Below, piece after piece: positions 7-45,295 of a DNA stretch of 49,415 nucleotides. The number at the start of each line of letters is the position of its first letter. The stretch's first letter is position 1. This stretch comes from Calditrichota bacterium (GTDB lineage: Bacteria > Calditrichota > Calditrichia > RBG-13-44-9 > J042): NCBI GenBank assembly GCA_013150955.1, contig JAADJD010000062.1:1-49415 (forward strand). Direction: 5' to 3'. Position numbers and translations under genes: made by a program. The notes below the pieces were generated by a model. That model was not told the DNA's origin and searched no databases. It was given only the letters and a program-made list of their open reading frames with translations.

Positions 7-765
7 TTAATTTTTATTCAAATATCTTAAACGCCAGAACCAAACGGCAACAAACAACAGGTTAATTAATAATGTAAAATATTGGCCATAACGAAAAATG
101 CTAAACTGAAATCTAACCCCAATATAGTAAAGTGCATCCAGTATATTTGATAGCATAAAGAAAAATATGATCAAATTCAAATATTCACTAAGTACAAAAT
201 GTTTTCGATAATAAAAAATCCAGAAGATCATCAGAGAAAAAATGCTGAGCGACTTAAAATAATAAACCTTCTTGCTGTAAATTGGCCAAATTTCTTGAAG
301 GTTCAGCTGGTCAGGTAAGGTAACGATTGAATAAAAATTAAGGAGAGAAAAAGCGATACAAATAATAAAAACAACAATTAGAGATTTACTATATCCGAGA
401 AATTGAGTAAAACCCAACGCATAAAAAAGCAAATAGAGAGAAACAACAAGAATCAAACTGGTTAAAATAATGTCTGCATAAAAATAAGCCGCATTATTAA
501 ATGGGCTGCTCATTATCGTATATAAAAAAAAGGGAATAAGCAAAATAAACGCCAGATAGAAATAAAATATTTTAAAAAGTAAAACAATATCCCGATTATA
601 TTTCGATAGTTTTAGGTTTTCGTTAATTAAAATGTAGGTCAACAAATAGATAAAGTAATAAACATACGACAAAAGAAATTTTTCACCTTTAAAAAAAATA
701 AATATTAATACGATAATGTAGAATAAAATTAACTTTAGGTACTTTTTTGTTAAAGATAAAATCAT
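7..765 (-). CDS. Hypothetical polytopic membrane protein
   Basis: No family is recognised. The 252-residue product is almost entirely hydrophobic, with about seven predicted membrane spans separated by short Lys/Asn/Tyr-rich loops and a basic C-terminus (WRLRYLNKN), so it is an integral inner-membrane protein. The ATG is preceded by AGAGGGA on the minus strand, a usable ribosome-binding site. The gene is visibly more AT-rich than the rest of the window and uses many Ile, Phe, Tyr and Asn codons, which suggests a different origin from its neighbours. A strong terminator (834-868) lies just upstream and separates it from the repeat-protein gene, so it needs its own promoter in 766-833. It could be the membrane part of a sensor, but nothing in the sequence proves that. 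Confidence 0.6.
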   Translation of the reverse strand: MILSLTKKYLKLILFYIIVLIFIFFKGEKFLLSYVYYFIYLLTYILINENLKLSKYNRDIVLLFKIFYFYLAFILLIPFFLYTIMSSPFNNAAYFYADIILTSLILVVSLYLLFYALGFTQFLGYSKSLIVVFIICIAFSLLNFYSIVTLPDQLNLQEIWPIYSKKVYYFKSLSIFSLMIFWIFYYRKHFVLSEYLNLIIFFFMLSNILDALYYIGVRFQFSIFRYGQYFTLLINLLFVAVWFWRLRYLNKN

Positions 766-892: not shown

Positions 893-1510
893 CTATCGAG
901 GCAATCCAGGAGGAGGAATCGGATTCCAAATATTCACTCGCGGCAATCCAGGTGGGGGAATCGGATTCCAGATTGAAGCCTCTCCTTTTTGTTCATTTTT
1001 CAACTCATTAACAGCTAAGGCCACTCGCGGCAAACCAGGAGGTGGAATGGGGTTCCAAATGGACAACCGCGGCAAACCGGGAGGAGGAATCGGATTCCAG
1101 ATAGCGACCCGAGGTAACCCAGGAGGAGGAATTGGATTCCAGATCTCTGTTCGAGGTAACCCGGGTGGGGGGATTGGATTCCAGATCGACAAACGAGGCA
1201 ATCCAGGGGGCGGTATCGGGTTCCAAATAGAAATCCGAGGTAACCCCGGTGGGGGAATCGGATTCCATATGGAAATGTCCAGATTTTCTTCTGACGGAGG
1301 CGGTAACGGATTCCAAACATTCAAATTCACAACATCCATAGATGCATCCGGAGAAAAAGAACTATTGGACACAAAATTAACAAAATAAGCACCTGAAACC
1401 GTTACCTTTGCATCTACCGTACCGAAAGTGGTAGATGCAAAAAGACTCAGCGTGAAGATGAGGGCTAATGCCAAGCCCACGACCAGGAGCTTTTTGATGA
1501 TAGTACGCAT
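893..1510 (-). CDS. Secreted proline-rich protein with IWNPIPPPGLPR repeats
   Basis: No known family is recognised. The product has a clear signal peptide (MRTIIKK, then a hydrophobic stretch to about residue 25) and so is exported. The C-terminal two-thirds is a repeat array: one degenerate unit (NVWNPLPPPSEE), then eight exact copies of IWNPIPPPGLPR, mostly on a 14-residue period with two variable residues between units (IS, LS, TE, VA, LS, VN). A 16-residue spacer with KNEQK interrupts the array before the last two units, and the final unit ends at the stop codon. The start at 1510 is chosen because AAGGAGGT lies just upstream; an in-frame upstream start at 1540 has no such site. The array could be a polyproline-type binding surface or a precursor cut after Arg; function is unknown. 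Confidence 0.85.
   Translation of the reverse strand: MRTIIKKLLVVGLALALIFTLSLFASTTFGTVDAKVTVSGAYFVNFVSNSSFSPDASMDVVNLNVWNPLPPPSEENLDISIWNPIPPPGLPRISIWNPIPPPGLPRLSIWNPIPPPGLPRTEIWNPIPPPGLPRVAIWNPIPPPGLPRLSIWNPIPPPGLPRVALAVNELKNEQKGEASIWNPIPPPGLPRVNIWNPIPPPGLPR
896..1290 (-). repeat. Intragenic 42-bp tandem repeat array
   Basis: Eight units encoding IWNPIPPPGLPR, six consecutive and two after a spacer of about 45 bp. At the DNA level the units differ at many third codon positions (Arg cga/cgc, Pro and Gly-pairing codons variable), while the encoded 12-mer is invariant. Confidence 0.85.
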
Positions 1511-4408: not shown

Positions 4409-4837
4409 AAAATGCACCAGAACCATGGCGTAAAGTCCGGCCACCACATCATCCATCATCACTCCCCAGCCATCCGGCAACCCTTGAAATTTATTGACCG
4501 GGAACGGTTTCCAGACATCAAACAAACGAAAGGCACCAAAAGCCAGCGCGTAAATCCACCCATTCAATGGCAGGAACAACACACTGATCCACATGCCGAC
4601 CATTTCATCAATCACCACTAAAGAGGGATCATGACGCTCCAATTCCCGCTCCACAAAAGTCGCCGAATACACCCCAACGAAAAAGAAAAACAGGATGCAG
4701 GCAATCAGAATGAACCACCGATCCTGGATCAGGAAATAGGCGGCCAACACGGCTAACAAACTTCCCGCAGTACCGGGCGCTATTGGCGCATAACCGGTAC
4801 CAAATCCCGAAGCAAATATGAAATAAATATTCCGCAT
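4388..4837 (-). CDS. pgpA: Phosphatidylglycerophosphatase A
   Basis: Removes the phosphate from phosphatidylglycerophosphate to give phosphatidylglycerol at the inner membrane. The family pattern is complete: ASGFGTGYAPIAPGTAGS at the N-terminus, IDEMVGMW in the middle, FRLFDVWKPFPV and GVMMDDVVAG near the end, with about four membrane spans. Start 4837 is preferred because GGAAAAA precedes it; an in-frame ATG at 4864 lacks a ribosome-binding site. It is divergent from the CoA-binding gene. The last codons (LTRIML and the stop) come from the end of dispersed repeat copy A, so the native C-terminus was probably replaced or extended by that insertion. The catalytic Asp residues are upstream and intact. 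Confidence 0.9.
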   Translation of the reverse strand: MRNIYFIFASGFGTGYAPIAPGTAGSLLAVLAAYFLIQDRWFILIACILFFFFVGVYSATFVERELERHDPSLVVIDEMVGMWISVLFLPLNGWIYALAFGAFRLFDVWKPFPVNKFQGLPDGWGVMMDDVVAGLYAMVLVHFLTRIML

Positions 4838-4919
4838 GCTTTTTCCGTTTGCTTTTGTAAACATAAAAATAGAAAATCAGCTGGAGTGGAAACAAGTTGA
4901 ATTAAAAAAGGACGGTACG

Positions 4920-5363
4920 ATGCTTAAAAGAGATCCATCTATGGATCAGCAAATTGTAAAGATTTTAACCGCTTACCGAAACGTCGCCATCGTGGGGGCA
5001 TCGAACAAACCGCATCGGGATAGCTTCCAGGTTACGCAATTTCTAATGGAACAGGGCTTTCAGATTTTCCCGGTCAACCCCAATGTCGAGGAAATACTGG
5101 GACGCAAATGCTACCCTTCTTTAATGGACATCCCGGAAACCGTAGAAATCGTCGACATTTTCCGTCGTCCCGAAGAAGTTGTCCCAATCGTGGAACAGGC
5201 CATTGCCATCGGCGCAAAAGTGATCTGGATGCAACTTGGGGTGATCAACGAAGAAGCAGCGCGCCTTGCCCGAAAGAGCGGGCTTTCTGTGATTATGAAT
5301 CGATGTATAAAAATCGAATTTCAGAGATGGATGTCAGACACAGAATATCCTAAAGACCGGTGA
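4920..5363 (+). CDS. CoA-binding domain protein (YccU family)
   Basis: A 147-residue single-domain Rossmann protein of the CoA_binding_2 family. It has the nucleotide-binding VAIVGASNKPHRDS motif near residue 25, VNPNVEEILGRKCYPSL, and the conserved VDIFRRPEEV and IWMQLGV segments. Members bind CoA in the cytoplasm; their physiological role is not settled. The start is placed at 4920 because AAAAGGACGG precedes this ATG; an earlier in-frame ATG (4836) would overlap the start of divergent pgpA. It is followed by a 116-bp gap before mtnA and may share a transcript with it. Confidence 0.85.
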   Translation: MLKRDPSMDQQIVKILTAYRNVAIVGASNKPHRDSFQVTQFLMEQGFQIFPVNPNVEEILGRKCYPSLMDIPETVEIVDIFRRPEEVVPIVEQAIAIGAKVIWMQLGVINEEAARLARKSGLSVIMNRCIKIEFQRWMSDTEYPKDR

Positions 5364-5479
5364 GTCCTAACAGGAGATATCCCCTGGCGATTTACAAAAA
5401 CGCAAAAAATAAAATGCCTTGAAAAATCAGAATGAGTATCCTAAATTTTTTCGTTTACAAGAAAAAAATTTGATGTCGG

Positions 5480-6538
5480 ATGACTCAAGCGCTCGAATGG
5501 AAGGGAAGTTATTTACGAATCATTGATCAAACCCGGCTTCCCTTTCAAAAAGTTTATGTGGACTTGCATACCATTCAGGACGTGCACCATGCCATTCGCT
5601 CCATGCAAGTGCGGGGTGCACCGGTCATTGGCATCACAGCGGCCTATGGATTGTATCTTGGCGTGAAAGATTTCCCCAACGATCACATTTCCCAATTTCA
5701 GGATCAGGTGGCGGCGCATGCGGAATACCTAAAATCCGCCCGACCAACGGCGGTCAATCTGGCCTGGGCAGTGGACTCGATCACCAATAAACTCCGCCAG
5801 CTGCAGATCACCGATGTGGAACAGGGTAAACGCTTTCTTCTTGAGCAGGCACAAGCCCTGCATGACGACGATCGCCGACGGTGCGAGGGCATCGCCCAGA
5901 ACGGAGTTCCCTTAATCCCCCAACGAGCCCGAATTTTAACGCATTGCAATACCGGCGCCCTGGCCACGGGGGGCATCGGTACAGCACTGGGCATTATCTA
6001 CAAAGCACATCAAAATGGGAAAGAGGTGGTGGTATATGCTGATGAAACCCGCCCATTCCTGCAGGGTGCCCGACTCACCGTCTGGGAACTTCAGCAAGCG
6101 GGAATACCGGTCACCTTAATCTGCGATAATATGGCCGCCTGGTTAATGAAACAGGGGCACGTGGATCTGGTTTTAGTCGGGGCAGATCGGATCACCCGCC
6201 ACGGTTATGTGGCAAATAAAATTGGCACGTACAATCTGGCCATACTGGCCCATCATCATAAAATTCCCTTTTATGTGGCGGCTCCCATTTCCACGTTCGA
6301 TTTTCAACTGGAACATGGGGATGACATCCCCATTGAAGAACGTGATTGCGAGGAAATTCGAAACATCCTGGGTCGGTGTGAGGTGGCTCCAGCAAATACA
6401 TCGTGCTGGAATCCAGCGTTCGATGTGACACCACCGGAATTCGTCACTGCCATCATCACCGAGGCTGGAGTCATTGAAACGCCGGTATCCGAAAACATTC
6501 GTCAGTTAAAAGAGAATTTAAAATTAACCATTCATTAA
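5480..6538 (+). CDS. mtnA: S-methyl-5-thioribose-1-phosphate isomerase
   Basis: Converts 5-methylthioribose-1-phosphate to 5-methylthioribulose-1-phosphate in the methionine salvage pathway. At 352 residues it has family length. Motifs seen are VRGAPVIGITAAYG near residue 45, THCNTGALATGG with the catalytic Cys near 156, VYADETRPFLQGARLT, DNMAAWLM, VGADRI with the catalytic Asp near 236, and ANKIGTYNLA. No other methionine-salvage gene is adjacent, so the rest of the pathway must lie elsewhere. The ribosome-binding site is weak. The downstream lipoprotein gene begins 18 bases after the stop and probably shares the transcript. Confidence 0.93.
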   Translation: MTQALEWKGSYLRIIDQTRLPFQKVYVDLHTIQDVHHAIRSMQVRGAPVIGITAAYGLYLGVKDFPNDHISQFQDQVAAHAEYLKSARPTAVNLAWAVDSITNKLRQLQITDVEQGKRFLLEQAQALHDDDRRRCEGIAQNGVPLIPQRARILTHCNTGALATGGIGTALGIIYKAHQNGKEVVVYADETRPFLQGARLTVWELQQAGIPVTLICDNMAAWLMKQGHVDLVLVGADRITRHGYVANKIGTYNLAILAHHHKIPFYVAAPISTFDFQLEHGDDIPIEERDCEEIRNILGRCEVAPANTSCWNPAFDVTPPEFVTAIITEAGVIETPVSENIRQLKENLKLTIH

Positions 6539-6556
6539 ACGGAAGGAGAAGTTCTA

Positions 6557-7648
6557 ATGAAAAAATTGGTAGGCATTGCGTTGATCGCGCTACTGTTGGT
6601 TTCTTTTCTGCTTACAGGTTGTCGTCCCCCCGAGGTGGAAGGGGTAGTAGTGGACATTCAACATGGAATGTACGATAAGGCACTTGAAGGTGCCCAGAAG
6701 GCTGTGGAGTTATACCCCGATAATGCGGAAGCCTGGTATTACCTGGGATTTTTGTATGGCCGCAAGGGCGAATTCAAAAAGATGAACGAAGCATTTGATA
6801 AGGCACTGGCTTTGAATCCCGATCAAAAGGTCAAATATGACAATGTGGACGTGCCTCTGAAAAAAGCCGTGGAACAGATCCGTCTGAATTATTTTGTACA
6901 GAATCACAACTCCGGAATTCAGGACTTCAACAAAGCCAATCAAACGGATGATCCCGAACAGCGCAAACAGTATCTGGCCAGTGCAGCGAAAAAATTCACC
7001 GCAGCACACGAAGCGTATCCCACCCGTGTGGAACCGTTGCAACCCCTGGCCCTGACTTATTTGCAGCTGGGCGATACCGCCACCGCCGAAAAATATTTTT
7101 TGGAAACCCTGCAAACCAACCCCAACAACGACACCCTGCTTTCCATGGTCGGGGAATTTTACATGATGGCGGGGAAACTGGATAAAGCCCAGGAAATGTA
7201 CGACAGGGCGCTGGAAATCAATCCCCAAAACGTGAACGCTCTGTTGGCCATGGCTCAGTTGATGACCACCAAAGACGACTGGGAAAAAGCGGTGACCTAT
7301 TTTGAAAAGGCACTGGAACTGGAACCCGACAACGCTGACATTTCCTTCAACATTGGATTGAGTTACTACCGACTGGAAAAATATCAGGAAGCCATACCTT
7401 ACCTGATGCGCACGCTGGAAAAAGAACCGGACAATGAAAAGGTGTACGAAGTGATTGGCGTATGCTACATTCAGGGTAAAATGTACGAAGAAGCATTGCC
7501 GTTTCTAAAGAAAGCTGTGGAAAAATTTCCGAACAACCATTACCTGTGGAATTACATCGCCATTGCGTATGCCAATCTGGGTAATGATGAAGAAGCCCAA
7601 AAGGCTTACGAAAAGGCCAAAGCACTGGAAAGTGCTCAACTGCAATGA
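6557..7648 (+). CDS. Tetratricopeptide-repeat lipoprotein
   Basis: A 363-residue protein with a lipoprotein signal (hydrophobic residues 4-19, lipobox LTGC with lipidated Cys22). It is therefore anchored on the periplasmic side of the inner or outer membrane. The rest is a chain of tetratricopeptide repeats: two near residues 32-95, then a run of about six from residue 155 onward, each with the A..Y..A.....P pattern (for example AEAWYYLGFLYGRKGEFKK and NADISFNIGLSYYRLEKYQE). Such proteins act as scaffolds for envelope complexes; the partner is unknown. A strong ribosome-binding site (GGAAGGAGAAG) precedes the ATG. The gene closes the mtnA transcript at the terminator at 7676. Confidence 0.88.
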   Translation: MKKLVGIALIALLLVSFLLTGCRPPEVEGVVVDIQHGMYDKALEGAQKAVELYPDNAEAWYYLGFLYGRKGEFKKMNEAFDKALALNPDQKVKYDNVDVPLKKAVEQIRLNYFVQNHNSGIQDFNKANQTDDPEQRKQYLASAAKKFTAAHEAYPTRVEPLQPLALTYLQLGDTATAEKYFLETLQTNPNNDTLLSMVGEFYMMAGKLDKAQEMYDRALEINPQNVNALLAMAQLMTTKDDWEKAVTYFEKALELEPDNADISFNIGLSYYRLEKYQEAIPYLMRTLEKEPDNEKVYEVIGVCYIQGKMYEEALPFLKKAVEKFPNNHYLWNYIAIAYANLGNDEEAQKAYEKAKALESAQLQ

Positions 7649-7675
7649 TCTCTTCGTTTCATGGAATTGCTATGG

Positions 7676-7705
7676 AAAAGGGGCTCCATAGTGAGCCCCT
7701 TTTTT
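7676..7705 (+). terminator. Terminator between convergent TPR lipoprotein and rex genes
   Basis: Stem AAAAGGGGCTC / GAGCCCCTTTTT with a short loop (catagt) and a T-run. It has A residues at the opposite end, so it can also stop the minus-strand rex transcript, whose stop codon is at 7737. Confidence 0.88.
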
Positions 7706-7736
7706 GTTGAAGAAATCAGGAAACTTTCGTACTTAT

Positions 7737-8372
7737 TCAGGAATTGGCTCGATTGCGGTTGCTCAGATGATAGGACAGCGCCTCGATTTCTATAGCCATA
7801 TTTTCGTTTTTAATATGCACGTGGGGAGGCACTTTCAAACTGCGGGGAGCAAAATTTAAAATGGCTTTCACGCCAGCTTCCACCAGCATATCGGCCACCT
7901 GTTGGGCGGCATTTGCGGGAACGGCGATGATGGCGATATCGATCCGCTCCTGAGCGATGAGCTCCGGTGCACGATTGACGTCCTCGATCCGGAGCCCGTG
8001 AATTTCGTTACCAATTTTTTGGGGATCCGAATCCATGATCAATTTGATATCGAAGCCCTGCTTGCGAAATTCTTCGTAGGCGACCAAGGCGCGGCCGATG
8101 TTCCCCGCACCGACGATCGCCACATTCCAGCGACGATTTAATCCCAGGATTTCGGCAATCTGATCCTTTAACGCACGGGTGTTATACCCCAGACCCCGTT
8201 TCCCGAACGTCCCAAAAAAGGACAAATCTTTACGCACCTGAGCGGAAGTGATCCCATCCATTTCAGCCAGTTCTTCTGACGAAACGGTTTCCACTCCCTT
8301 TTCAATCAGGTGCTCCAGCGAACGATAATACTTGGATAAACGTTTGACGGTTGAATCGGATATTTTTTTCAT
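7737..8372 (-). CDS. rex: Redox-sensing transcriptional repressor Rex
   Basis: A 211-residue Rex protein. The N-terminal winged helix (residues about 1-80, STVKRLSKYYRSLEHL…GITSAQVRKDLSFFG) binds operators. The C-terminal Rossmann domain (VAIVGAGNIGRAL near residue 88) senses the NADH/NAD+ ratio, and the FAPRSLKVP segment is also family-typical. Rex normally represses fermentation and respiration genes when NADH is low. A strong ribosome-binding site (GGAGG) precedes the ATG. Its start is only 21 bases after the gyrA stop, so it is very probably the last gene of the dnaN-gyrA operon, an unusual place for a redox regulator. Confidence 0.95.
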   Translation of the reverse strand: MKKISDSTVKRLSKYYRSLEHLIEKGVETVSSEELAEMDGITSAQVRKDLSFFGTFGKRGLGYNTRALKDQIAEILGLNRRWNVAIVGAGNIGRALVAYEEFRKQGFDIKLIMDSDPQKIGNEIHGLRIEDVNRAPELIAQERIDIAIIAVPANAAQQVADMLVEAGVKAILNFAPRSLKVPPHVHIKNENMAIEIEALSYHLSNRNRANS

Positions 8373-8393
8373 GGCGCCTCCAGAAATATAACA

Positions 8394-10838
8394 TCACTCC
8401 TCATTTGACGCATTTTCTTCCCGGATGACTCGAGCAACATCGCTGACACGATCGCCTTCGTCCAGCTTCATCAGCCGAACACCCATCGTATCCCGTCCGG
8501 TTACATTAATATTGCCCACATGAATCCGCAAAATCACGGCCTTGGTGGTAATTAGCATGAGATCATCCCGGTCAACAACTTCCATGATCGACACCAATCG
8601 CCCCGTCTTGTCACTGACTTTAAATGTTTTTACGCCCTTTCCACCCCGATGCGTTCGACGATACTGCCGAATATCGGTGCGTTTACCAAATCCTTTTTCC
8701 GACACCGAAAGCAGGGTACCTTCCCGCTTGACCACCACCATGCCAATCACTTCATCGTCAGCATCCAGGGTAATTCCGCGAACGCCAGCGGCAATCCGCC
8801 CCATTTCTCGCACTTCAGATTCGCTGAACCGGATGGCCATTCCCTTTGCCGTCGCCAGAATAATGTCGTTGTTTCCATCCGTTTGTTTGACCTCGATGAG
8901 GGTATCATCCGGATTCAATTTGATGGCATAAATTCCATCCCGGCGCGGATTTTTAAAGGCGGAAAGATTGGTCTTTTTCACCAATCCCCGGCGGGTCGCC
9001 ATCATGAGATATTTATCGCTGCTAAACTCCCGTACATTTACAAAGGCGGTGATCTTCTCGTCCCTGGAAATTTGAATCATATTCACGATGGCGCGCCCTT
9101 TACCCGCCTTGCCCACCTGAGGAATTTCGTGTACCTTCAGCCAGTATACCTTCCCCTTATCGGTAAAAAAGAGAATGTAATTATGGGTGGAAGCGATAAA
9201 AAGATGTTCCACAAAATCTTCGCCTTTGGCCACGGCCCCGGCACTTCCCCTGGTGTTGCGATGCTGTCGCCGGTATCCGCTCACCGGAAAGCGCTTGATG
9301 TAGCCATCCCGCGTGATGGTAATGACCATGTCTTCCTCGGCGATCATGTCCTCGATGGAAAACTCTTCGAAATCCTTGACAATTTCCGTACGGCGCTCGT
9401 CTCCGTAATTCTCCTTCAACTCCAGCAATTCTTCTTTGATAATTTCCATCTGCAAGGCATGACTTTCCAGGATCGATCGCAGCCGTTCAATGGTCTTCAG
9501 CAACTCGCGGTATTCCTCTTCGATTTTGCGGCGTTCCAGTCCCGTCAGGCGCTGCAATCGCATATCCAGAATCGCCTTGGCCTGCACCTCGCTCAATCCA
9601 AACTTTCGCATTAAATTGGTTTTGGCCGTTTCGGGATCACGCGATTTTTTGATCGTTTCGATGATCGCATCGATGTTGTCCAGGGCGATCTTTAACCCTT
9701 CCAGAATGTGCGCCCGCTTTTCCGCCTGATCCAGTTCGTAACGGGTGCGCCGGAGAATGACCGTGTGGCGATGCTTGATAAACTCATCCAGCAACTGCTT
9801 TAAATTTAAAATACGGGGAATGCCATCCACCAGTGCCAGATTGATGATGCCAAACGTCACCTGCAATTGCGTGTGCTTGAAAAGTTGATTCAGGATGACT
9901 TCCGGTTGCGCATCCCGACGCAGCTCAATCACCACCCGAATACCATCGCGATCGGACTCATCCCGAATATCGGTGATGCCATCGATTTTTTTCTCCCGCA
10001 CCAGTGCCGCAATCTTTTCGATCACGGAGGCCTTGTTCACCTGGTAGGGCATTTCGGTGATGACAATGTTGCTTCGGTTGTTGCGCGTGTGCTCAATATT
10101 GGCCCTGGCGCGGACAACGATCTTCCCACGACCGGTCTCGTATGCCTCCCGAATGCCATCGCTTCCGAAGATAATACCCGCTGTGGGAAAGTCCGGCCCC
10201 TTAATGTGTTGCATCAGCTCGGCAATGGTAATGTCCGGGTTGTCGATTTGCGCCACCAGCGCATCCACCACCTCATTTAAATTATGTGGCGGAATGTTGG
10301 TGGCCATTCCCACTGCAATACCGGACGATCCATTGCACAATAAATTGGGGAAAACCGTTGGCAACACCACCGGTTCCTGGAGGGACTCATCAAAATTGGG
10401 GCGCCAGTCCACGGTGTCCTTCTGCAAATCGCGCAGCATTTCCCCCGCAATCTTGGCCAGACGCACCTCGGTGTACCGCATGGCTGCGGGAGAATCTCCA
10501 TCGATGGAACCAAAATTTCCCTGGCCATCCAACAATGGGTAGCGCAGGGAAAAATCCTGCACCATACGCACCATGGTGTCGTAAACGGCGCTATCCCCGT
10601 GGGGATGGTACTTCCCCAGCACCTCACCGACCACACGGGCGCTCTTCTTATACGGCCGGTTATAAAACAGGCCCATTTCGTACATGCCATATAATACCCG
10701 GCGATGCACCGGCTTTAACCCATCCCGTACATCCGGCAATGCCCGGGCAACAATCACGGACATGGAATAATCCAGGTAGGAGACCTTCATCTCCTCTTCA
10801 ATGTCCGTGGGAATAATGCGCTGTCGTTGCAATTCCAT
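8394..10838 (-). CDS. gyrA: DNA gyrase subunit A
   Basis: The 814-residue DNA-cleaving and rejoining subunit of gyrase, which acts with GyrB to introduce negative supercoils. The N-terminal breakage-reunion domain shows [20 protein letters not shown], the catalytic Tyr in AAMRYTE near residue 123, and [10 protein letters not shown]. The C-terminal domain is a beta-pinwheel starting near residue 505. The canonical GyrA box QRRGGKG expected in blade 1 is replaced by [10 protein letters not shown] (about residues 523-532), while an HRGGKG stretch occurs much later, near residue 740. A ParC identity is unlikely because gyrB is adjacent. Ribosome-binding site GAGGAAG. Within the operon, gyrB ends 97 bases upstream and rex starts 21 bases downstream. 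Confidence 0.95.
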
Positions 10839-10935
10839 AAAACGTTCTTCCTCTCGATTTGTCCTGCTAACGCCTACAATTTACATCTCACGAAAATCAC
10901 TTAAACCCGGCAGGGACTCCCTTCCATCCCTGGGA

Positions 10936-13163
<2,228 letters not shown>

Positions 13164-20759: not shown

Positions 20760-22052
20760 ATGATCGATACGCTAAAAATATTCAATGAACTTAAAGAGAA
20801 GCTCGATCCGGAAGCGGCTTTGAAGCTGGCCGAAATCATCGGATCGGTATATTCAGAGCTATCGGACACCGTTACCAAGGCCGAGTTCAATGAGTTAAAA
20901 GATATTGTTCACGATCTGCTAAATGCCCAGAGGCAGACGACGGATCACCTTAATCGCCTGCTGGAGTTCCAGCAAAAAGTTGAAAAACAACTGGAAACGC
21001 TTACCCGACGGGTTGACCAGCTTACAGTCGCGCAACAAAAGACCGAAGAACGGCTCAATCAACTGGCTGAAGCCCAGCAAAAAACCGAAGAACAGCTGGA
21101 GAAGCTTACGCAACGTGTCGATCAGTTGACGATCGCCCAGCAGAAAACTGAGGAGCGACTGGAAAAACTCACTCAACGGGTAGATCAACTGGCCGAAGCT
21201 CAGCGAAAAACCGAAGAACGGCTGGAAAAACTCACCCAACATGTCGATCAGCTGACGATCGCCCAGCAGAAAACTGAGGAGCGACTGGAAAAACTCACTC
21301 AACGGGTGGATCAACTGGCCGAAGCTCAGCGAAAAACCGAAGAACGGCTCAATCAACTGGCACAAGCCCAACAAAAAACCGAAGAACGGCTGGAGAAACT
21401 CACCCAACGCGTCGATCAGCTGACGATCGCCCAGCAGAAAACTGAGGAGCGACTGGAAAAACTCACTCAACGGGTGGATCAACTGGCCGAAGCTCAGCAA
21501 AAAACCGAGCAACGCCTCAATCAGCTGGCCCAAGCCCAACAAAAAACCGAGGAACGGCTCGAGCAATTAGCCGAGGCTCAGAGGAAAACCGAGGAGACGA
21601 TCCGGAAGCTCACCCGCCGGGTGGACGACATCGCGGAACAACTGGGCGGTATTAGCAACACCATCGGGTATCGGCTGGAAGACCAAGCCTACAAACCGCT
21701 GAAACAGATCCTGGAAAAAGAATACCGGATTTCCGTTGATCGCCTCTACCGCAAGAATCTGGTCTATTCCCCCAAAAAATACGATGAAATTAACATCTAC
21801 GGTGAAGGTCAACGGAACGGCAATCGGGTATTTGTAATAGGCGAATGCAAGGCTCAGTTTGGTGTGCGCGATGTAAATCGTTTCCTGAAACTGCTGGAAC
21901 GCCTGAAAAGCCGTCTCGAAGGCGAAATATTCCCTATCACCCTGGCATACCAGTATCATCCGGTAGCCGAGGAAATTCTGAAACAAAAAGGAATCCGCGT
22001 TTTCTGGTCTTACGAAATACCCAATGTCCTCCCTTACTCGGACATTTTTTAA
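20760..22052 (+). CDS. Coiled-coil repeat protein with PD-(D/E)XK nuclease-like C-terminus (DUF3782-like)
   Basis: A 430-residue protein. Residues about 40-300 form a long coiled coil made of a 21-residue (three-heptad) unit of the type KLTQRVDQLTIAQQKTEERL, repeated about ten times with shorter NQLAQAQQKTEERL variants. The C-terminal 130 residues resemble the PD-(D/E)XK fold of DUF3782 proteins: D342 in YDEINIYG, and E362-x-K364 in VIGECKAQFG, followed by a helix with YQYHPVAEEIL. The nuclease-like active residues look intact. The pattern (long coiled coil plus nuclease core) is known from archaea and cyanobacteria, but no function is established. No adjacent methylase or toxin-antitoxin partner is seen. 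The upstream region ends with TTGTTATATTG; no promoter call is made. Confidence 0.78.
   Translation: MIDTLKIFNELKEKLDPEAALKLAEIIGSVYSELSDTVTKAEFNELKDIVHDLLNAQRQTTDHLNRLLEFQQKVEKQLETLTRRVDQLTVAQQKTEERLNQLAEAQQKTEEQLEKLTQRVDQLTIAQQKTEERLEKLTQRVDQLAEAQRKTEERLEKLTQHVDQLTIAQQKTEERLEKLTQRVDQLAEAQRKTEERLNQLAQAQQKTEERLEKLTQRVDQLTIAQQKTEERLEKLTQRVDQLAEAQQKTEQRLNQLAQAQQKTEERLEQLAEAQRKTEETIRKLTRRVDDIAEQLGGISNTIGYRLEDQAYKPLKQILEKEYRISVDRLYRKNLVYSPKKYDEINIYGEGQRNGNRVFVIGECKAQFGVRDVNRFLKLLERLKSRLEGEIFPITLAYQYHPVAEEILKQKGIRVFWSYEIPNVLPYSDIF
20991..21640 (+). repeat. Intragenic 63/126-bp tandem repeats (coiled coil)
   Basis: Units of 63 bp (21 residues) alternate with 42-bp units (14 residues). A block of about 126 bp beginning ACGATCGCCCAGCAGAAAAC recurs almost identically at about 21128, 21254 and 21422. 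Near-identity at the DNA level implies recent expansion or slippage. Confidence 0.85.
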
Positions 22053-45070: not shown

Positions 45071-45295
45071 TTTAACTCAGATTTTGCATTCGGCTACGAA
45101 TTACACGAATAGTCATGAATAAACCCAGATGATGCATTAGGCCACAAATTAAACGAATTAACACAAATAAAATTAAAAAAACACCCTGGATATTAAATCT
45201 GAATGAAAATTTGTTTCGGTGTTTGTTAGCGATTTTGTGGGTATTTTTTAGATTCATTCGCGTAATTTGCGTTTAATGCACTTATTTGGGTTTAA
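45071..45295 (-). repeat. Dispersed intergenic repeat, copy F (reverse orientation)
   Basis: About 225 bp, from TTTAACTCAGATTTTGCATT to TTATTTGGGTTTAA. The left end has two successive half-units (the second starts AAACCCAGATGATGCATTAG). The core, with CATGAATAAACCCAG and AATCTGAATGAAAATTTG, is in the same orientation as copy C. It is the only copy between divergent genes. Confidence 0.83.

Follow-up and report, generated by a model that had tools for sequence, protein, structure and literature searches.

A secreted Trp/Pro repeat protein, a probable multi-copy peptide precursor, beside a putative receptor and histidine kinases in Calditrichota, a candidate peptide-signalling locus

The cluster and its putative peptide precursor

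The stretch of DNA that was analysed (the window, 49,415 nucleotides from a Calditrichota bacterium) corresponds to the opening 49 kb of contig C20. It carries, at its beginning and on the minus strand, part of a small gene cluster. The first cluster gene (1580-2065) codes for a helix-turn-helix (HTH) protein of 161 amino acids that resembles HTH_17 at a score just under the Pfam cut-off. It is followed by a gene for a secreted, putative multi-copy peptide precursor of 205 amino acids (893-1510, with its ATG at 1510), by an intrinsic terminator made of a 15-bp stem and a T tail (834-868), and by the gene of a polytopic membrane protein, a putative receptor, of which the N-terminal 252 residues with eight transmembrane (TM) helices are present (7-765), the contig start falling inside the gene. 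The remainder of the cluster is carried by contig C3 of the same genome, which opens with the 91 C-terminal residues of the membrane protein and continues with two histidine kinase genes. The first kinase (HK1, 517 amino acids) has a PAS-HisKA-HATPase-REC architecture and the second (HK2, 958 amino acids) a HAMP-PAS-GAF-HisKA-HATPase-REC architecture; both carry HisKA, HATPase_c and Response_reg domains, the HisKA domain of this HK2 lying just under the gathering score. The order HTH gene, peptide gene, terminator, polytopic membrane protein gene, PAS histidine kinase gene and second kinase gene is conserved among relatives. The stop codon of the membrane protein frame at 7-9 coincides with the contig edge, where the frame may be disturbed, and the HTH protein shows a weak similarity, far below cut-off, to the MADS1 defence HTH protein (NF047737).

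The precursor begins with a hydrophobic signal sequence, MRTIIKKLLVVGLALALIFTLSLFA (residues 1-25, 1436-1510), recognised in the translation and by a hydropathy screen of the homologues. Translation of the open reading frame bears out what an earlier note on this DNA had described, an exported protein with eight exact copies of a 12-residue unit, IWNPIPPPGLPR, the last of which closes with an Arg directly before the stop codon. The units start at residues 81, 95, 109, 123, 137, 151, 180 and 194 and correspond, in this order, to positions 1235-1270, 1193-1228, 1151-1186, 1109-1144, 1067-1102, 1025-1060, 938-973 and 896-931. The two-residue spacing reported in the same note holds for most of the array, where variable dipeptides (IS, LS, TE, VA, LS and VN) separate the units, but unit 7 is preceded by a spacer of 17 residues, VALAVNELKNEQKGEAS. 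The count of eight also missed a ninth, degenerate unit, VWNPLPPPSEEN (residues 65-76, 1283-1318), which stands ahead of the exact ones. Sequence searches of Pfam, NCBIfam and PDB gave no family for the precursor, and no relative was found in phage and plasmid collections. Designed SAKe proteins, considered as PDB relatives of the repeat protein (E 0.0015 and 0.026), were rejected, their matches extending over 16-18 residues only.

The codons of the array are informative about its history. Among the eight IWNPIPPPGLPR copies, 11 third-codon positions are variable and at least 20 substitutions can be counted with zero residue changes. Over all pairs of copies, 189 synonymous and 0 nonsynonymous codon-pair differences were obtained; about 28% of random point changes are expected to be silent, and the synonymous-only pattern has a chance of roughly 1e-11 when substitutions are treated as independent. 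The units of a relative, genome G003, likewise show 35 synonymous and 0 nonsynonymous codon-pair differences. Because the DNA has diverged without any residue change, each 12-residue unit is, judged by its codons, under selection that maintains every copy individually, and the array is on the same evidence a product neither of chance nor of recent slippage or fresh duplication.

Peptide homologues in related genomes

A secreted Trp/Pro peptide occupies the same slot in seven genomes of the order, the window genome included. According to the hydropathy screen each homologue has a signal sequence, and the number of units ranges from 1 to about 9. G007 has five LNTWNPLVPPGIPPELS units and G013 about eight TWSPVVPPKIPKLA units. 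The peptide of G005 (74 amino acids) combines WNPVEPPNLEIQ with two WNPVRPPHIPD units, and in that of G003 five VWNPWPPPIK units are separated by spacers of different lengths (KEKGGDGIAGN among them). G009 encodes a diverged protein in which IWNQLTPPEKSK occurs together with two SLASIIPIPRPGGGKPTI units, and G002 a protein of 58 amino acids with a single unit, NTWNPTPRPDLPIPDMN. The core can be written roughly as [TIV]-W-[NS]-P-x-x-P-P-x-[IL]-P, its wording being specific to each species; the double proline is absent in G002, whose homologue has no consecutive prolines (TPRPDLPIP). A pattern of two WNPxxPP units was detected in 4 of the 385 genomes searched, each time at the peptide locus, and occurs nowhere else in the window genome. 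In the array of G013 (L007 5544-6191), a 7-base duplication shifts the frame and the later units continue in the other frame, which represents either an assembly error or a phase-variation-like event.

The single-unit member bears directly on the alternative named in the earlier note, a structural surface protein in which the proline-rich array forms a wall-spanning stalk or a binding repeat. Polyproline-type repeats can form rigid stalks in other proteins, and the array could in principle be one of them. A 58-amino acid homologue with one unit in the same slot disfavours such a role; moreover, there is no recognisable anchor after the array, the stop codon coming directly after the last unit, and the neighbouring genes code for sensor kinases and not for surface assembly. 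We consider a stalk very unlikely.

The homologues also decide on the mode of processing that had been proposed for the window, cutting of the precursor after the Arg at the end of each unit. The residue that follows the core varies (R, P, K or D), and the units of the relatives end, in place of Arg, in PELS, PKLA, PDLA, PDMN or IKKEK. Since the Arg end is not conserved while the copy number itself varies, Arg-directed cleavage is ruled out as a rule of the family, and the Arg-cut model has been given up. The wider idea of a secreted multi-copy precursor remains the best reading of the gene, with the Arg spacing no longer among its grounds.

A cleavage site that is not conserved across relatives is also what would be seen if the repeat protein were never cut. 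It would then stay whole in the periplasm or the envelope, where the membrane protein and HK1 would monitor it as a multivalent ligand or sacrificial sensor, for example of envelope stress or secretion flux. The genetic linkage would be identical, the cluster encodes no protease, and a Sec-exported protein would stay in the periplasm of a diderm cell. The identity of the individual units and the existence of a single-copy member are nevertheless more easily reconciled with dosage of a small ligand than with multivalency, and an uncut protein appears to us unlikely, though worth keeping in view.

Gene order, terminator and the putative receptor

In locus L006 of G007 the cluster is intact (HTH gene 4774-5310, peptide gene 5341-5691, membrane protein gene 5892-6959, HK1 gene 6963-8501 and HK2 gene 8557-11424) and is adjoined by a divergent SDR gene. 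G013 has the same order, which is partly seen in G005, G002, G003 and G009, as contigs or gene loss allow; no relative of the HTH protein was found in G005. The peptide gene lies just upstream of the receptor gene in all five assemblies of the order in which that stretch is contiguous (window, G007, G013, G005 and G002). In G003 and G009 it is located on a contig that ends before the receptor, and in G001, a genome of the same genus, the contig begins within the receptor gene; the part that should lie upstream was looked for in that genome and not found, a result that is uninformative. A gene for a YfiR/HmsC-like secreted protein (DUF4154, just under cut-off) lies between the HK1 and HK2 genes of G005 (L042 4577-5173, minus strand), and a weak match to CHASE8 was obtained with the HK2 of the window genome; on account of these two observations, HK2 may be a YfiN-like sensor.

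The peptide gene of the window is preceded by an AGGAGG Shine-Dalgarno sequence (1517-1522), and the same ribosome-binding site was seen in G007 and G013. Terminator-like hairpins separate the peptide and receptor genes in the window, G007, G013, G005 and G002; that of G009 closely precedes the receptor gene on a separate contig, and that of G003 is found just after the peptide gene at the contig end. The stem sequences differ among the seven genomes, and the hairpins were unmatched in 300 shuffles of each stretch. Their distance from the stop codon of the peptide gene varies from 25 to about 125 nt, and they do not overlap its reading frame. With a strong ribosome-binding site and a terminator of its own, the gene would be expected to give far more peptide than receptor, and such an excess would be the natural reading of the layout.

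Hairpins in this stretch of seven genomes could also belong to a leader open reading frame, in which translation of Trp/Pro-rich codons would govern terminator read-through into the receptor operon. PPP and PPG motifs slow ribosomes, and their presence would fit such a device. A ribosome-stalling leader is however disfavoured because the single-unit member of G002 has no PP, and the variable position of the hairpin outside the reading frame speaks against it as well. A signal sequence and eight selected units would in addition be superfluous for a leader, which we hold to be highly improbable and the least credible of the readings considered here.

By profile search, 16 of the 40 Calditrichota genomes have the membrane protein family, as does G040, a genome of another phylum. 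A wider search of 385 genomes recovered it from Calditrichota and G040 only, G040 being the sole genome of its phylum in that sample. The protein has no usable sequence match in Pfam, NCBIfam or PDB. In AlphaFold models the confidence of the eight TM helices is fair (mean pLDDT 82, pTM 0.80), and the full-length model adds two further C-terminal helices with low confidence. The positive-inside rule predicts both termini to be inside and the loop of 40 residues that joins TM8 to TM9 to be cytoplasmic. Conservation is lowest in the external loops (0.27-0.34, a 3-residue loop left out) and reaches one of its highest values in the long cytoplasmic loop (0.54), a pattern that would be expected of a receptor whose ligand changes while its output stays the same. 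Among the matches listed by Foldseek nearly all are GPCRs, a class which dominates the helical bundles of PDB; the best E value is 0.048, none is significant and TM-scores are mostly under 0.5, and the resemblance of the predicted model to GPCRs is a lead only.

The receptor gene has a GC content of 27%, compared with 49% for the window. Of 7 fragmented assemblies, 5 break within about 1.5 kb at this place (P about 3e-4 if breaks fell uniformly; for the window genome, window positions 7-765 and G000:C3:1-278), a clustering that could reflect strain-level variability or, equally, coverage dropout in AT-rich DNA.

Peptide genes of other kinds accompany the receptor family elsewhere. In G016 (family f4), the HK1 gene is directly followed by three genes in tandem (L051, reverse complement 6950-7539), each for a small secreted Pro-rich peptide; two of the peptides end in SEYAAIPPFEKPELPPKK and one has KYASTQLPVPPAMDSNKNLADKLD, and no homologue of the first was found elsewhere in the class. 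G040 encodes, upstream of its receptor gene, a secreted Pro-rich peptide of 65 amino acids ending in DYASLQVEYPLPPRPPPK. The G016 and G040 peptides share only a short YA..PP resemblance, and the WNP core is absent in both. Between the peptide and receptor genes of G040 there is an inserted DDE transposase gene (L097 4330-5562), and a sigma-54 activator gene, instead of a kinase gene, comes after the receptor gene. In the genomes of family f6 and in two of the three f4 genomes, the membrane protein and HK1 genes have no adjacent peptide gene, and these pairs are mostly located directly behind glyS. Since the pair occurs alone in those genomes, the sensor can exist without a neighbouring peptide.

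The persistence of the membrane protein family without peptide in other families is ill-suited to an immunity protein, which is what it would be if the locus made a secreted proline-rich antimicrobial or bacteriocin-like peptide under the control of the two-component genes. The sequences are secreted and species-variable, as such a peptide might be, and some insect antimicrobial peptides, apidaecin among them, are known to derive from multi-copy Pro-rich precursors. The units are, however, not consistently cationic, that of G007 having no basic residue and one acid, and an antimicrobial function is in our estimate rather improbable.

A candidate peptide signal and its counterparts

On balance, and with some reserve, we hold it probable that the gene encodes a secreted multi-copy precursor of signal peptides which are read by the adjacent sensor and kinase. 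This reading is favoured because of the adjacency of receptor-like and kinase genes, the selection on each unit, the intervening terminator and the single-unit homologue, and also of the predicted receptor-like topology and of the secreted Pro-rich peptide genes beside the receptor homologues of G016 and G040. Against it count the lack of a processing signal conserved among relatives, the lack of an outer-membrane exporter or dedicated protease in the cluster, the genomes in which the sensor pair has no peptide gene beside it, and the absence of the WNP core from the G016 and G040 peptides. The Sec pathway would export a precursor carrying multiple identical short Trp/Pro signals and deliver them to the periplasm, and probably also outside the cell, and a putative protease would cut the precursor at a presumed cleavage site into free peptides. 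The neighbouring 8+2-TM membrane protein would bind and thereby detect the peptide, and may communicate its state to the product of the next gene, the soluble PAS-HisKA-HATPase-REC kinase. Both the second, HAMP-PAS-GAF kinase/receiver and the HTH protein would be part of the same response, which might consist of activation or repression of HK1 together with downstream targets. Such a system could serve for cell-to-cell signalling or for self-monitoring.

Peptide signalling is known chiefly from Gram-positive bacteria. No such system has been described in Calditrichota as far as we could find, and searches of open-access papers gave no described bacterial system of a multi-copy peptide with an adjacent receptor. 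The locus supplies a candidate ligand that can be synthesised (12-17-mers), a candidate receptor family without Pfam entry and a kinase directly behind it. More tentatively, and as a possibility that we rate somewhat short of probable, it may be the bacterial equivalent of the mating-factor system of yeast, with a polyprotein pheromone of species-specific wording, a new multi-TM receptor family, a separate histidine kinase, and related pairs of peptide and receptor in two phyla of non-model bacteria. A repeat-precursor strategy familiar from fungi would then be at work in bacteria, and the copy number of its natural variants runs from 1 to about 9.

Fungal Kex2-processed repeat proteins and yeast MFalpha1 are similarly built, with several identical short peptides behind a signal peptide, and their repeat number varies among relatives while their wording diverges between species (PMC7329392, PMC5850478). 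In a fungal pheromone precursor, the repeat number alters the amount of pheromone produced (PMC5850478). The mature yeast alpha-factor is read by a polytopic membrane receptor, and the candidate receptor of Calditrichota is also predicted to be polytopic. In contrast to the fungal systems, the Calditrichota precursor is bacterial and Sec-exported, its receptor-like gene is adjacent, and histidine kinases stand in place of G proteins. A conserved dibasic site (KR/RR) between units is absent; the units are followed by R, PELS, KLA, DLA or DMN, and KK occurs in G003 only. By analogy, the precursor would work like the fungal repeat pheromone precursors but is not one of them, having neither a conserved Kex2-type site nor known homology.

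Among bacterial systems, Agr (AgrD/AgrC) and ComX/ComP share with the locus a precursor gene beside a polytopic sensor and a kinase, as well as a species-specific wording. Their precursors contain one copy of the peptide, dedicated proteins (AgrB, ComQ) take care of processing and export, and the TM sensor is fused to the kinase. Here, by contrast, sensor and kinase are encoded by separate genes, the copies are multiple and diderm cells are expected in the host phylum; the cluster encodes no processing or export protein of the AgrB/ComQ type, and the membrane protein matches neither of these families. Multicore RiPP precursors, of which cyanobactins are an example, also carry repeated core peptides. 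The Calditrichota precursor differs from them by a Sec signal sequence in place of a RiPP leader, and no modifying enzyme was seen beside it in the gene content of L006, L007 and L042. A multi-TM sensor that passes its signal to a kinase is also known from the 7-TM LytS-type kinase BtsS (PMC10653868). The membrane protein of the present cluster differs from BtsS in having eight TM helices, a conserved cytoplasmic loop and two more TM helices, a kinase on a separate gene and no sequence relative in Pfam or PDB.

Finally, two other repeats were noticed in the window. A coiled-coil-like protein encoded at 21058-21593 contains 63-nt and 42-nt tandem repeats with units of the type AQQKTEERLEKLTQRVDQL, and a 48-nt tandem repeat in two copies is located at 45074-45171.
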